In this document: one piece after another, positions 16,140 through 50,343 of the stretch
Layout of the letters: every line of letters starts with the position of its first letter
Position numbering within the stretch: the first letter of the stretch is position 1
Source: Shouchella oshimensis
Lineage (GTDB): Bacteria > Bacillota > Bacilli > Bacillales > Bacillaceae_D
DNA: 64,000 nt
Assembly: GCF_002019765.1 (NCBI RefSeq)
Contig: NZ_KV917380.1
Location: 672,707 to 736,706, forward strand
Direction: 5' to 3'
The notes under the pieces: model-generated
What the model was told of the DNA's origin: nothing
Seen by the model: only the letters and a program-made list of their open reading frames with translations
Database searches by the model: none
Program-made: the position numbers and the translations under genes

Positions 16140-16856
16140 ATGCAATCGATTAAAGGAAAAGTAGCCCTTATTACAGGTGCAGGAAGAGGAATTGGGCGAT
16201 CTACTGCTATTGCTTTTGCAAAAGAAGGTATCCACGTAGGGCTAGTGGGGCGTACAGTTGAAAACTTGCAAAACGTTGCAGATGAATTAAAAGAATACGA
16301 TGTGAACGTCGCTATTGCCGCTGCGTCAATTGAAGAATTGGACTCCATCACGAAGGCTGTAGAGCAGGTTCGTGCTGAATTAGGGCCAATTGATATTCTT
16401 GTCAACAACGCGGGAATCTCTAAGTTTGGTGGCTTTATGGACTTAACCCCTGAGGATTGGACAAACATTATTGATGTCAATGTGAAAGGGGTCTATTACA
16501 CCACCCGTGCTGTCTTACCAGAAATGGTAGAACGTCAAACAGGTGACATCATTATGATCGCATCTACTGCGGGACAAAAAGGTGCGCCAGCAACGAGTGC
16601 CTATACTGCATCAAAAGCAGCTGTTATTGGTTTAAGTGAATCGTTAATGATGGAAGTTCGTAAACAGAATATCCGGGTAACGACTTTAACGCCAAGTACA
16701 GTCGCCACAGATATGGCAAAAGAGCTTCAATTAACAGACGGGAATCCTGAGAGCGTGATGCAACCAGAAGACATGGCTGATTTAATGGTGGCACAGCTCA
16801 AACTTCATCCCCGTGTCGTGCTTAAGCACGCAGGCTTATGGTCAAATAATCCATAA
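16140..16856 (+). CDS. Short-chain dehydrogenase, FabG-like 3-oxoacyl reductase
   Basis: This 238-residue NADPH-dependent reductase has the glycine motif [14 protein letters not shown], the structural NNAG motif in [10 protein letters not shown], catalytic Ser in [11 protein letters not shown], and Tyr/Lys in [13 protein letters not shown]. The C-terminus is shorter than in true FabG and lacks a neighbouring acp or fabD, so it is more likely a paralogue with its own substrate than the essential fatty-acid enzyme. It stands as a single gene. Confidence 0.92.
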
Positions 16857-16962
16857 AAATAACGGAACACAGCTTAACGGTCGTGTTTTTTTAGTGGAAT
16901 TTGGATAATCTCTCCAGTTATAATGAAGCAAAAAGAGGATTTGTTTAAAGAGGAGAGATTTG

Positions 16963-17967
16963 ATGCAAGCCATTTGGGCAGAGGACAATATGGGAATTTC
17001 TTTGGAATCAGCTACAGACACAACCGTGCGGGAGGCAGAAGAACGACTTGGAGTCGTATTACCTCTTACATATGTAGCGTTAGTTAAGGTACAAAACGGT
17101 GGATCTCTCACAGCAAATGCAGTTCCATCCCCTTCCAAAGATATACAAGAACCGTATATAGAGGTAGAAGAACTCTTTGGCATTGGTGATGGTGGCATTT
17201 ATGACTCACCTTATTTAATTAAAGAATGGGATCTGCCAGCAGGCATTGTCCTTTTTTCTGGGACGGGTCATTCGTGGCTAGCATTTGATTATCGTCAAAC
17301 GAAAGAGAACCCACCAATCGTTTATTTTGAAGTGGATGCAGAGACTATGGAGTATCCTCTAGCAGATCATTTCGATGCCTTCTTAGAAATGTTGTGTGTG
17401 GAAGAAGGAGAGGAATGGGAGGATGCAGATGATGAAGATGAGATACTAACTCATCAAGCTTTTGAAGCATTACTGAAAGAAAAGAATAGTGAGAAACTCA
17501 GAAATGCAATTGAACGTACATTGCAATTTGAAATGGATTATGAGTGGTTAGGAAACATTTACTTAAAGCTAAGTACATATCCAACCCATAGCATTCGCGC
17601 AAAAATAGCGAATCAAATATGGAGTATGAAATCGGCTTTTTTAGATGAGAATGTTTTGGCAAAACTTGTTCAAGTTTTTAAAGAAGACGCTAACCAAGAA
17701 GTACAGGCATATGCTGAATTGCTTGAAGAAAAAATAAACTGGTCTTATCATCAATGGCTGTCAAACCTTGATGGAACTGGTACGAGTCCCTTAGTATATG
17801 ATCAAAAACGTATCATTCATGTTTATAAAGACGAGGGTGCTTGGATAGTAGAAATAGAAGGAAAAGACCTTGAGCAACGATACTCTTCAAAAGAGAAATT
17901 GCTTGATGAGTTTAAATTAAATGGTTTAACAATTGAACAAGTTTGGGAACGAATGGCATTGTTATAG
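16963..17967 (+). CDS. SMI1/KNR4 (SUKH) family protein
   Basis: This is a 334-residue protein with an N-terminal SUKH domain (about 10-145): TTVREAEERLGVVLPLTYVAL, VQNGG, ELFGIGDGG, IVLFSGTGHSWLAFDY and the DHFDAFLEML end. A helical C-terminal half of unknown function follows an acidic linker (GEEWEDADDEDE). Many SUKH proteins are immunity partners for polymorphic toxins, but no toxin gene is seen nearby. ATG 16963 has AGGAGAG 6 bases upstream. The membrane protein 18 bases downstream is probably co-transcribed. Confidence 0.85.
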   Translation: MQAIWAEDNMGISLESATDTTVREAEERLGVVLPLTYVALVKVQNGGSLTANAVPSPSKDIQEPYIEVEELFGIGDGGIYDSPYLIKEWDLPAGIVLFSGTGHSWLAFDYRQTKENPPIVYFEVDAETMEYPLADHFDAFLEMLCVEEGEEWEDADDEDEILTHQAFEALLKEKNSEKLRNAIERTLQFEMDYEWLGNIYLKLSTYPTHSIRAKIANQIWSMKSAFLDENVLAKLVQVFKEDANQEVQAYAELLEEKINWSYHQWLSNLDGTGTSPLVYDQKRIIHVYKDEGAWIVEIEGKDLEQRYSSKEKLLDEFKLNGLTIEQVWERMALL

Positions 17968-46701: not shown

Positions 46702-48867
46702 TTATACGCATAATTTTGCCATGACGTTTTGAATAAGCTGCAAGCCAACTTCTCCAGACTTGCTTAGTATGGATTCAGGATGAAATTGAACCCCTGCAAT
46801 TGGTAGATGTTTATGCTGAATGGCCATTGGGATATGGTCAGTAGTGGTTGCCTCTAAGCGTAGGCAATCTGGCAGCGTTTTGGCGTAAATGGAATGATAG
46901 CGACCAACACTAATTTGTTTTGGGACATTGCTAAACAGTCCATCTCTCTGTTGAACAAATACGTCTGATTGTTCGCCATGGGACGGCGTTTCAAGCAGGC
47001 CGAGCTCACCTTTAAAGTGTTCAACAATGCCTTGGAAGCCTAAGCAAACGCCGAAGATCGGTATGTCTTTTTCTACACAAAGAGCAATGGTGTCTGAGAG
47101 TCCGAAGCGTTTAGGTGTTCCGGGACCAGGAGACAGCACGACTAAATCATATGAATTCCGTTCTAAAAAATCTTGTGCATAAATGGACCGTGTTGTTGAA
47201 ACGGTTGCACCTGTTTGCTTGAAATAACTACCTAGGGTATGAACAAACGAATCCTCATGATCAACAATAAGGACGCGTTTGCCTTTACCAGATTGCTGGA
47301 AAACATGTGGTGTTCTTGGTTCATGGTTTTGTGGCGATACGGCTTCCGCCAGCGCGGAAACTTTCACGAGTGTTTCTTCTTCCTCTTCTTCCGGGTCAGA
47401 AGTGTGCAAAAGCGTTGCGCCAACGCGTAACGTTGCAGTATTGTTTTTAATTGCTGTAGTCCGTAAGGTTAAGCCTGTATTAAGGTCACCGTTAAAAGCG
47501 AACCAGCCAACTGCACCTCCATACCATCCCCGGGGCGTCTCTTCATTTTTTTCAATCCAGCGTAATGCCTCAATTTTTGGAGCCCCTGTAACGGTTACGG
47601 CCCACATATGCGTCATAAACGCATCTAAGGCGTCGTATTCTTCACGCATTTCACCGACTATGTGATCGACTGTATGAAAAAGTCGCGCATAGGTTTCGAC
47701 TTGCCTGCGTCCAATTACTTCTATAGAGCCTGGTAAGCAAATACGTGCTTTATCATTCCGATCAACGTCTGTGCACATCGTTAGTTCGGTTTCATCTTTT
47801 TTCGAGTTTAGCAGTTTTTTAATATTTTGTGCGTCTTCAAGTGGGTCTTTTCCACGGCGAATGGTTCCAGATATGGGGCAGGTTTCTACCTGTTGCCCTT
47901 GCACGCGGACAAACATTTCTGGTGAGGCTCCAACAAGGTACTCTTCACCTAAATTAATAATAAAGCCATACGGACTTGGGTTAATGTCGCGTAGTTGTTG
48001 AAAAACTTCTGAAGGTGTTAAGACAAGTGATTTTTCAAGCACTTGGGTTGGCACTACTTCAAACAAGTCGCCTGCGTGAAAAGAAGGAATGGCCTTCTTA
48101 ACAAGATCAGCGTAATAACCCTTTTTATAAGGTGTTTCCCGTGTGAGGGTTCCTCGTTCATATGGTTTAAACTGACCTGTTCTTTCTAAGTGATTCGTCG
48201 ATTTCTTATTAAATTGGACGTCATAAGAAAGGGTATAGGCGATTGATAAATGATGGTCTACAATGGTTAATTCATCAGGTAAATAGAGAACGAGATCCTT
48301 TTGGTCGTCTGGGCGTTTTTTTTCTTTCGCAAGCTGTTCAAATTGATAGATAAGGTCAAACCCGAATGCACCATATAAACCGAAAAATTGATCTTCATCG
48401 GAAGCAAATAGTTGTTTCAGTTCTCGAATAATGTGAAAGATGGAAGGTTGTTTGGTGCGGTCTTCCTCATTTTGTATGGCTGCTGTAGCCGGGATCGTTC
48501 CGTGTAGGCTCGTTTGTTGGTCATTAAAGCCCCGAATAAAATCAAAACGACTGTTTGAAAAATGAGTACGAACCAGTTCTAATAGAAATTCGCCTCGTTC
48601 GTTAAGTGCATTAATGGAATAACGGTTATTTGAAAAGCTTATTTCGAGTGGGGGACGTAAAAAGGCAACATCCCATCTTGAATAACGCCCTGTAAATTCA
48701 AAGCTACTTGAAAAAACAGCGCCTTTTACAGCATCTATTTCTGGCAAAATGTCTGTGTCAATTTTGGTTGGGGAGACGGTCTCAATTCTTCTTGTAACGA
48801 GAATGTCTCCGTCTGTAATGTAGTGTTTTGTTTTTTCATTTGTTTTCAATGTGGAAAGAATACTCAC
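46702..48867 (-). CDS. trpEG: Fused anthranilate synthase TrpE-TrpG
   Basis: This 721-residue enzyme makes anthranilate from chorismate and glutamine, the first step of tryptophan synthesis. The N-terminal TrpE part (about 1-500) contains LFEVVPTQVLEK, PYGFIINLGEEYLVGASPEM, CPISGTIRRGKDPLED, DVDRNDKARIC, VTVTGAPKIEAL and GWYGGAVGWFAFNGDLNTGL. The TrpG part (about 525-721) has VLSPGPGTPK, the nucleophile motif FGVCLGFQGI and catalytic His/Glu in GVQFHPES. B. subtilis has separate trpE and trpG/pabA; this fusion is the rhizobial/azospirilla-like TrpE(G) type. No other trp genes are adjacent. GTG start with AAGGAGG. Confidence 0.92.
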   Translation of the reverse strand: MSILSTLKTNEKTKHYITDGDILVTRRIETVSPTKIDTDILPEIDAVKGAVFSSSFEFTGRYSRWDVAFLRPPLEISFSNNRYSINALNERGEFLLELVRTHFSNSRFDFIRGFNDQQTSLHGTIPATAAIQNEEDRTKQPSIFHIIRELKQLFASDEDQFFGLYGAFGFDLIYQFEQLAKEKKRPDDQKDLVLYLPDELTIVDHHLSIAYTLSYDVQFNKKSTNHLERTGQFKPYERGTLTRETPYKKGYYADLVKKAIPSFHAGDLFEVVPTQVLEKSLVLTPSEVFQQLRDINPSPYGFIINLGEEYLVGASPEMFVRVQGQQVETCPISGTIRRGKDPLEDAQNIKKLLNSKKDETELTMCTDVDRNDKARICLPGSIEVIGRRQVETYARLFHTVDHIVGEMREEYDALDAFMTHMWAVTVTGAPKIEALRWIEKNEETPRGWYGGAVGWFAFNGDLNTGLTLRTTAIKNNTATLRVGATLLHTSDPEEEEEETLVKVSALAEAVSPQNHEPRTPHVFQQSGKGKRVLIVDHEDSFVHTLGSYFKQTGATVSTTRSIYAQDFLERNSYDLVVLSPGPGTPKRFGLSDTIALCVEKDIPIFGVCLGFQGIVEHFKGELGLLETPSHGEQSDVFVQQRDGLFSNVPKQISVGRYHSIYAKTLPDCLRLEATTTDHIPMAIQHKHLPIAGVQFHPESILSKSGEVGLQLIQNVMAKLCV

Positions 48868-49034
48868 ACTAAAAAACCTCCTTTGTATACGTTTGTATAC
48901 AGAGAAAGCATCAGCAAATAAACAGGGGTATGCCCTTTTTATAATCGTTTGCTCTACTCATCTCTGCTCTTCTCACTAAACTCTACTCAACTAGTTCTCT
49001 ACATAAAACACATTTATGCTTGTTACACATTCTA
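48868..49034 (-). promoter_or_regulatory. trpEG leader with TRAP-type GAG/UAG repeats and SD-covering hairpin
   Basis: A promoter is proposed with TAGAAT (49034-49029) and TTGTAA 17 bases upstream of it. On the RNA strand, 48999-48952 carries ten GAG or UAG triplets spaced mainly by two bases, the pattern bound by the tryptophan-activated TRAP protein (MtrB). Downstream, TTTCTCTGTATAC can fold with GTATACAAAGGAG across AAAC and so cover the ribosome site. CAGAGA and AGCAAA inside the repeats can pair with TCTCTG and TTTGCT to prevent this. TRAP itself is not encoded in the window. Confidence 0.75.
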
Positions 49035-49078
49035 TTACAGGTATGACGGAATTACAAGAAATGTTTTATGAAAAAGGG

Positions 49079-49128
49079 TTGTCAACGTTAGGTAACTGCT
49101 GTATTATAAATCGTAATCATTACGATTT
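49079..49128 (+). promoter_or_regulatory. zagA promoter with Zur box
   Basis: TTGTCA (49079-49084) and TATTAT (49102-49107) are spaced by 17 bases. A perfect 21-base palindrome at 49108-49128, with core TCGTAATCATTACGA, follows immediately. It matches the Bacillus Zur consensus (AAATCGTAAT-N-ATTACGATTT), so zinc should repress this promoter. Confidence 0.93.
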
Positions 49129-49149: not shown

Positions 49150-50343
49150 ATGAAAAAAATACCAGTGACAGTGTTAAGTGGTTACCTTGGTTCAGGTAAA
49201 ACCACCTTATTAAATTATATTCTACATAATCGAGATGGCTTAAAAGTAGCTGTTATTGTAAATGATATGAGTGAGGTAAATATTGATTCTGAACTCGTGG
49301 AAAAGCAAGGAGGATTCTCAAGAACAGATGAGAAGCTCGTAGAACTATCCAATGGGTGCATCTGTTGTACATTACGTGAGGATCTTTTAGTAGAAGTTGA
49401 GCGTCTTTCTAAGCAAGGAGACATCGACTACATCGTAATTGAATCCTCAGGGATTAGTGAACCGATACCTGTTGCACACACATTTAGTTACGTAGATGAA
49501 GAATTAGGGATAGACCTTAGCCGTTTTTGTACGTTAGATACAATGGTGACCGTTGTCGATGCAAATCGTTTCTGGCATGACTTTGAATCTGGTGAATCGT
49601 TGTTAGAGCGGAAGCAAGAAGTAGGCGAAGAGGATTACCGAGAGGTTGCCGACTTACTTATTGATCAAATTGAATTTTGTGATGTGCTCGTTCTTAACAA
49701 ATGTGACCTTGTTTCAGAAGAGCAGCTCTTGCAACTAGAACAGGTTCTTAAGAAGCTACAACCAGAAGCAAAGCTACTGCGTTCGACTCGATCTGAAGTT
49801 CCGATTAAGGAGGTTTTAAATACAGGATTGTTTGACTTTGACAAAGCGAGCGAGTCTGCTGGTTGGTTAAAGGAATTAGAGCTTGGACCAGAAAATCATA
49901 CGCCGGAAACAGAGGAGTATGGAATCTCTTCCTTTGTGTTTGAAAGCAAACGACCGTTTCATGCAGAACGACTGGATAAATGGTGTGAGTCTATGCCCCA
50001 ATCAATTGTTCGTGCAAAGGGTATTGTTTGGTGTGCGACAAGAAATGACTATGCTTTATTATTTTCTCAAGCTGGTTCGTCTGTATCGATTGAACCTGTA
50101 ACGTACTGGGTAGCGGCTTTACCTAAAGAGCAGCAACAACAAATTCTAGCAGTAAATAAAGAAGTAGCAAAAGACTGGGACACAACCTTTGGCGATCGCC
50201 ATACGAAGGTGGTTCTTATTGGAATGGGAATGAATAAAGAAGACATTCTTAAAGAGTTAGAGGAGTGTCTTTTAACGGAAGAGGAATATCAACAAGATTG
50301 GAACACTCTCCCTGACCCATTTGATTGGGTTATTCAACAGTAG
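49150..50343 (+). CDS. zagA: COG0523 zinc metallochaperone ZagA (YciC)
   Basis: This is a 397-residue GTPase of the G3E family that delivers zinc under zinc starvation. Walker A is in VLSGYLGSGKTTLLNYIL; the metal-binding CxCC motif is NGCICCTLRE; SSGISEP and LVLNKCDLV are further GTPase motifs, with NKxD intact. The C-terminal domain (about 260-397) carries the CobW-C-type strand set. A perfect Zur box lies at the promoter. In B. subtilis the orthologue supplies zinc to GTP cyclohydrolase. RBS AAAAGGAG. Confidence 0.95.
   Translation: MKKIPVTVLSGYLGSGKTTLLNYILHNRDGLKVAVIVNDMSEVNIDSELVEKQGGFSRTDEKLVELSNGCICCTLREDLLVEVERLSKQGDIDYIVIESSGISEPIPVAHTFSYVDEELGIDLSRFCTLDTMVTVVDANRFWHDFESGESLLERKQEVGEEDYREVADLLIDQIEFCDVLVLNKCDLVSEEQLLQLEQVLKKLQPEAKLLRSTRSEVPIKEVLNTGLFDFDKASESAGWLKELELGPENHTPETEEYGISSFVFESKRPFHAERLDKWCESMPQSIVRAKGIVWCATRNDYALLFSQAGSSVSIEPVTYWVAALPKEQQQQILAVNKEVAKDWDTTFGDRHTKVVLIGMGMNKEDILKELEECLLTEEEYQQDWNTLPDPFDWVIQQ

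Follow-up and report, generated by a model that had tools for sequence, protein, structure and literature searches.

Translation of trpE in Bacillus subtilis is controlled by TRAP (Du and Babitzke 1998; Merino et al. 1995, as cited in PMC4347634), through a leader that carries a triplet array and a 5' stem-loop and in which an alternative pairing hides the ribosome site once TRAP is bound. The 5' stem-loop of the B. subtilis trp leader has been mapped, and the attenuator of this leader is described as being itself a weak terminator (PMC3913778). TRAP also represses translation of tryptophan genes outside the main operon, at trpG and trpP, where its reported action is a direct block of the ribosome site (PMC4347634), and a 12-subunit TRAP (PDB 3ZZL) has been described in B. 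halodurans, in which the ring size is attributed to residues 15, 71 and 72 and the leader has 19 NAG triplets (PMC3184956). Other Gram-positive trp leaders are T-boxes, which sense uncharged tRNA. Among the literature matches listed, titles and abstract starts revealed no paper on a TRAP leader before a fused trpEG gene, much of the TRAP literature lying outside this scope; the sole paper among them joining TRAP, trpEG and leader (PMC3464598) employs these terms with unrelated meanings.

The window considered here is a stretch of 64,000 nucleotides of Shouchella oshimensis, which lies in a genome of 4.06 Mb in one contig and contains, on the minus strand, the gene trpEG (Table 1). The leader of this stand-alone fused gene is considered, with good confidence, as a translational switch controlled by TRAP, on the basis of the triplet array, the TRAP gene, the hairpins, their conservation and the computed refolding; TRAP would bind the leader, in response to tryptophan, and the effect would be exerted at the level of translation. 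It is a variant of the known B. subtilis trpE switch, with which it shares the array, the 5' stem-loop and the alternative pairing, and from which it differs in that the gene is a stand-alone fused trpEG instead of the trpE of trpEDCFBA, no attenuator is recognisable, the array is of a 5+5 type with a 1-base spacer, and the TRAP protein resembles the 12-mer type. To what is known from B. subtilis are thereby added the stand-alone fused gene, a wide conservation, an exchange with T-box control and the question of the 12-mer.

The fused nature of the gene, as given in the initial annotation, was confirmed by profile search, the product exceeding the NCBIfam cut-offs of both PRK13566 and TIGR01815. 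Its closest named relative is the gene of Shouchella miscanthi (95% identity), the Shouchella group being the former Bacillus clausii group. A trpE-family search of the genome gave two matches, trpEG and the gene at 16477-17805. The latter is below every NCBIfam cut-off and was taken as pabB because a pabA/trpG gene (PRK07649) and an aminodeoxychorismate lyase gene (PRK07650), both over cut-off, come next in the same row; trpEG is very likely the sole anthranilate synthase of the genome. A likely trpEG promoter was located by consensus scan, its spacing suggesting an RNA start near 49020; as the scan returned 3 sites where shuffles gave 6.4 on average, the promoter match alone says little. Between this promoter and a divergent CobW/ZigA-like GTPase gene (49150-50343) lies a 21-bp inverted repeat, AAATCGTAATCATTACGATTT (49108-49128, plus strand), which we take to resemble a Zur box. 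One of its bases is changed in S. miscanthi, and it was not found in the related genome G004, where 7 kb were searched with at most 4 mismatches.

Table 1. Features of the trpEG leader and of the second array (positions in the window, except where a locus or contig is named; L, locus; G, genome; SD, Shine-Dalgarno sequence)
Feature	Position	Strand	Basis
Candidate trpEG promoter, TTGTAA-17-TAGAAT	49029..49057	-	consensus scan, 9/12 matches
5' stem-loop GCAUAAA-loop-UUUAUGU, directly ahead of the array	49001..49019	-	minimum-energy fold
TRAP-type array, ten (G/U)AG triplets, spacers 3,2,2,2,1,2,2,2,2	48952..48999	-	sequence, chain scan, pattern search, shuffles
Competing (anti-sequestering) helix CAGAGA (48966-48961)/UCUCUG (48905-48900) + AGCAAA (48953-48948)/UUUGCU (48918-48913)	48900..48966	-	minimum-energy fold
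Small hairpin around AGGGCAUACCCCU, between the array and the anti-SD strand	48918..48944	-	folds, both states
SD-blocking hairpin UUUCUCUGUAUAC-AAAC-GUAUACAAAGGAG, then GUUUUUU (U6 at 48876-48871)	48878..48907	-	fold, shuffles
SD AAAGGAGG of trpEG	48877..48884	-	sequence; 9 bases ahead of the GTG start
trpEG, fused anthranilate synthase, 721 aa	46702..48867	-	NCBIfam; GTG start at 48867
Second TRAP-type array, before trpD	L085:9086-9427 (G000:C1 about 1994585-1994926), also L134, L135, L136		

The ten GAG/UAG triplets with mostly two-base spacers indicated in the initial annotation were found as stated on the minus strand, where they read GAG aac TAG tt GAG ta GAG tt TAG t GAG aa GAG ca GAG at GAG ta GAG. 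TRAP leaders were defined as having about 9-11 (G/U)AG triplets with spacers of 2-3 nt, and the array corresponds to this definition with the exception of one spacer of 1 nt, which divides it into 5+5, so that the longest runs are 5 and 5 when only spacers of 2-3 are admitted. The 1-base spacer breaks the register of the array and is a point against the TRAP reading; the leaders of S. miscanthi and G004 (by eye in G004) likewise have a single-base spacer at this place, five triplets from the 3' end. The best six minus-strand triplet chains listed for the window are all inside this array, and the longest chain on the plus strand has 3 triplets. When the 157-nt leader was dinucleotide-shuffled 20,000 times, no chain exceeded 7 triplets; with the GA-rich array shuffled alone, 7/20,000 shuffles attained 10. 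Two matches to (KAGNN)x5 were found in the whole genome, one in the trpEG leader and one some 350 bp ahead of trpD, and the control pattern, read backwards, gave one. The four-triplet pattern gave 10 matches, 6 of which are within the trpEG and trpD leaders (control: 6), and none of the ten is at the pabA/trpG gene. The array has eight GAG/UAG and two AAG triplets in S. miscanthi and nine perfect GAG/UAG triplets in G004; in these close relatives (trpEG genes 95% and 79% identical, respectively) the letters of the helices are kept and so is the array, though with fewer perfect triplets, and the loss of repeats and helices that the initial annotation would have counted as a refutation was not observed.

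Upstream of the array, as in the B. subtilis trpE-type switch, the leader has a 5' stem-loop, which was absent from the first description of the leader and is added here. In B. subtilis, such a stem-loop beside the array aids the binding of TRAP, and it probably would do so here. S. miscanthi and G004 retain the stem, both partners having changed at three of its pairs (A-U to G-C, U-A to C-G and A-U to G-C), its register being placed by hand because MAFFT misplaced the stem. With three distinct sequences, this covariation is suggestive.

The SD hairpin with one mismatch described in the initial annotation is present: a fold energy of -12.0 kcal/mol was computed for the 44 nt that end at the SD, and 2/300 shuffles were equally stable. 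The competing helix, also described there, was recovered in the minimum-energy fold but is no better than chance as a bare duplex (72/500 shuffles as stable for the own leader; 12/43 array leaders at the 5% level), any CU-rich strand being able to pair with an array so rich in GA, and on this count the duplex was rejected as independent proof. The fold of the whole leader is only moderately better than that of shuffles (z -1.87, 8/200). The letters of both arms of the SD hairpin and of both competing stems are invariant in three distinct Shouchella leaders. At the place of the small hairpin around AGGGCAUACCCCU, a hairpin with altered letters is found in S. miscanthi and G004.

In the minimum-energy fold of the free leader, the 3' triplets pair with UUUGCU..UUUCUCUG. 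Blocking the array, a check that the initial annotation had proposed, moves the SD into the hairpin: the probability that the SD is in the hairpin passes from 0.00 (free) to 0.99 (blocked) in the own leader, with 0/200 shuffles changing as much, from 0.08 to 0.99 in S. miscanthi (1/200 shuffles) and from 0.16 to 0.98 in G004 (4/200 shuffles), the shuffles being made on the stretch between array and SD (200 per leader). By computation, the SD hairpin and the array structure are thus mutually exclusive. The measure depends on the ends chosen for the RNA, since with 30 nt more of 5' sequence and any pairing counted the own free SD is already 0.61 paired.

According to the proposed mechanism, TRAP would be empty at low tryptophan, the 3' triplets would pair with the strand just named, the SD would be free and anthranilate synthase would be made. 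At high tryptophan, TRAP-tryptophan would wrap the ten triplets and release the anti-SD strand, which would then pair with the SD and block trpEG initiation. The presence of mtrB, the conserved letters of the helices and the computed refolding support the initial proposal, and this leader probably works as a TRAP SD switch of the B. subtilis trpE type.

The alternative that survives best, though we hold it to be rather improbable, is that TRAP acts mainly on transcription, the polymerase stopping in the leader either hairpin-free or through the SD hairpin and the following U6 (GGAGGUUUUUU) as a weak terminator, in which case one hairpin would be both terminator and SD blocker. A transcriptional effect is conceivable because TRAP needs no attenuator hairpin to halt transcription, which in B. 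subtilis it is described as doing even with the attenuator deleted (PMC3913778). Moreover, all three distinct Shouchella leaders, as well as that of L039 (Anaerobacterium), have a run of six U after the SD, which is found in none other of 48 leaders. On the other hand, the stem is A-U rich with a mismatch, no run of at least 4 U is found between SD and start codon in 44/48 leaders, and the scan of the minus strand between 46600 and 49300 listed no intrinsic terminator, neither at the SD hairpin nor at the AGGGCAUACCCCU hairpin, in line with the absence of a clear classical terminator in the initial annotation. The arrangement of the B. subtilis trp attenuator, a terminator with U-rich tail opposed to an antiterminator, was not found in the leader, and the SD hairpin with U6 is considered as a weak candidate terminator.

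The translational switch was further examined in relatives, which are not independent samples. A total of 47 related loci were collected, and the upstream DNA was covered for 46 of them (L036 left out); a triplet array of score at least 4, a cut-off chosen by the author, precedes trpEG at 41/46. With this cut-off, 43/48 leaders pass, the leaders of L052 and L053, which are the same as that of L002, being counted once. Array-bearing loci belong to Shouchella, Paenibacillus, Saccharibacillus, Brevibacillus, Fictibacillus, Cohnella, Sporolactobacillus, Terrilactibacillus, Pullulanibacillus, Caenibacillus, Hydrogenibacillus, the clostridium Anaerobacterium and one further Bacillota genome. If the reading is true, TRAP control extends to the stand-alone fused anthranilate synthase in twelve genera.

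In 23/43 array leaders, the fold of the stretch ahead of the SD ranks within the best 5% of shuffles, vs 0/5 leaders without an array. At this level the SD hairpin is found in 0/9 Saccharibacillus leaders, and it was consequently rejected as a universal trait of array leaders. A switch was considered as clear when the probability of the SD in the hairpin was at most 0.5 free and at least 0.8 blocked; this was the case in only 11/43 array leaders, so that equilibrium folding shows no refolding in most of the group, and the thermodynamic switch was likewise rejected as a universal feature. In many Paenibacillus leaders, the SD hairpin is predicted to form whether TRAP is bound or not.

Thirteen leaders (Paenibacillus, Brevibacillus, Fictibacillus, Cohnella), chosen because they carry the strand CCTGTTCTCCTCT, have this strand invariant with varying loop and flanks. 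Its complement is found in the SD AGAGGAGG and, in six leaders, also in GAGAACAGG within the array, and its invariance matches, at the level of sequence, what is expected of a strand with two partners. The array of six Paenibacillus leaders (L004, L005, L010, L014, L015, L042) contains GAGAACAGG as the exact complement of the anti-SD CCTGTTCTC, and the same six leaders have CAG where a triplet is expected. In the cross-family MAFFT alignments of SD hairpins the arms are partly out of register, for which reason no covariation count was drawn from them.

The many array-bearing relatives without predicted refolding bear on a second alternative, by which TRAP would block ribosomes through its own bulk, or act through RNA decay, instead of refolding the leader. 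This is a markedly less probable explanation than an effect on transcription. It is in keeping with B. subtilis trpG and trpP, where TRAP is described as blocking the ribosome sites directly (PMC4347634); here, unlike in these genes, the array ends 67 nt before the SD, so that there is no overlap and direct blocking is unlikely, and the refolding signal in Shouchella is strong.

The gene of TRAP itself, mtrB, whose presence in the genome the initial annotation had proposed to check, was found at 1986483-1986686 (E 6.2e-39, above cut-off); its product is the NCBIfam MtrB equivalog over cut-off, and the gene adjoins folE, as in B. subtilis. The search for mtrB was extended to relatives: from the 47 loci plus L054, 32 were selected (the array-less L048 not among them), and 29 genomes were searched (L010, L023 and L025 left out), 26 of which carry the gene, including 25/25 of the array-bearing genomes searched, with mtrB frame-broken in one of them (L047). 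The three genomes without mtrB (L026, L032, L043) each have an Rfam T-box before trpEG, and these are the only T-boxes among the 21 trpEG loci scanned with Rfam; T-box leaders of the Gram-positive trp type thus also stand before fused trpEG genes. Since mtrB is present in all array-bearing genomes searched and a T-box is found where it is missing, there is strong evidence, on comparative sequence grounds, that the arrays before trpEG serve TRAP. If this is true, control by TRAP and control by a T-box can be compared within one gene family as they occur in nature.

A third possibility, that the array is no site for TRAP and that trpEG is under a T-box, Zur or no regulator, is scarcely credible: the Zur-box-like palindrome of the shared upstream region, which differs by one base in S. 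miscanthi, speaks in its favour, but G004 has kept the leader and not the palindrome, the Rfam scan of the window gave no family at gathering score and no T-box (RF00230) match, and the array tracks mtrB.

Some loci were noted apart. Paenibacillus curdlanolyticus (L040) is an exception and speaks against the TRAP reading, as it has mtrB and a trpEG leader without array or T-box. In L048, neither an array nor an Rfam match was found before trpEG. In Terrilactibacillus sp. S3-3 (L047), mtrB lies over two frames (G147:C1:1715243-1715438), which could be a sequencing error, and the trpEG leader has an array of 8 triplets.

The initial annotation considered the spacing of the array as suited to an 11-subunit ring, which is doubtful, because the own TRAP is nearest to the 12-subunit B. 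halodurans protein, and PMC3184956 favours 12-mers in B. clausii and Paenibacillus. The best matches of the own TRAP among solved chains are two 168-residue tandem MtrB chains, followed by 3ZZL, the B. halodurans structure. With the B. subtilis numbering of PMC3184956 applied by eye, the own protein has Arg15, Asp71 and Thr72; the Asp and Thr are shared with B. halodurans TRAP, whose position 15 is Lys, and 12-mers were judged likely in that paper for the TRAP of B. clausii and Paenibacillus from Lys15 and Thr72. These residues would point to a 12-mer, and an 11-mer fit deduced from the triplet count is unsupported by the TRAP sequence. With ten triplets here, against the 19 of B. halodurans, and a TRAP of 12-mer type, the relation of ring size to triplet number becomes directly testable, if the reading is true. 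Anti-TRAP (PF15777) was not found in the genome by a model which, as the control matched 4/14 genomes (3 over cut-off), is partly unspecific.

The second array of the genome concerns the remainder of the pathway. Fused trpEG was found in 4/13 Shouchella genomes; in 8 others, a trpE-like match is located directly before trpD by coordinates (five loci read), and the remaining one has no trpD at the cut-off used. In the four trpEG-bearing genomes, trpD is instead preceded by a separate array and, after it, by a frame of 60-62 codons that overlaps the start of trpD with its stop; the amino acids of this frame are diverged with a conserved start region (three of the four translated). The start codon of this frame is in a hairpin, paired at 0.71-0.84 in the free leader and at 1.00 with the array blocked, and its SD is unaffected by the blocking (about 0.17 both ways). 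The array and the frame look like a TRAP-controlled leader peptide coupled to trpD, and we infer that trpE was lost from the trpD operon in the trpEG-bearing Shouchella. If so, a split tryptophan pathway is kept under one regulator by two separate arrays. At 10 other trpEG loci, the first downstream same-strand frame of at least 100 codons was never trpD.

A more general picture can be proposed only tentatively, and is in our view rather doubtful as a whole: in Bacillales, the stand-alone trpEG would have a portable TRAP leader that switches translation, mostly with a 12-subunit TRAP, and for which a T-box would be swapped in by genomes lacking mtrB; in Shouchella, the trpE of the operon would have given way to a gene of this kind, the TRAP array left behind would control trpD via the leader peptide of 60-62 codons, and the hairpin at the trpEG SD, with its U6, would be at once SD blocker and terminator. 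In the own genome, the gene ahead of the trpD array is aroH, which encodes chorismate mutase.
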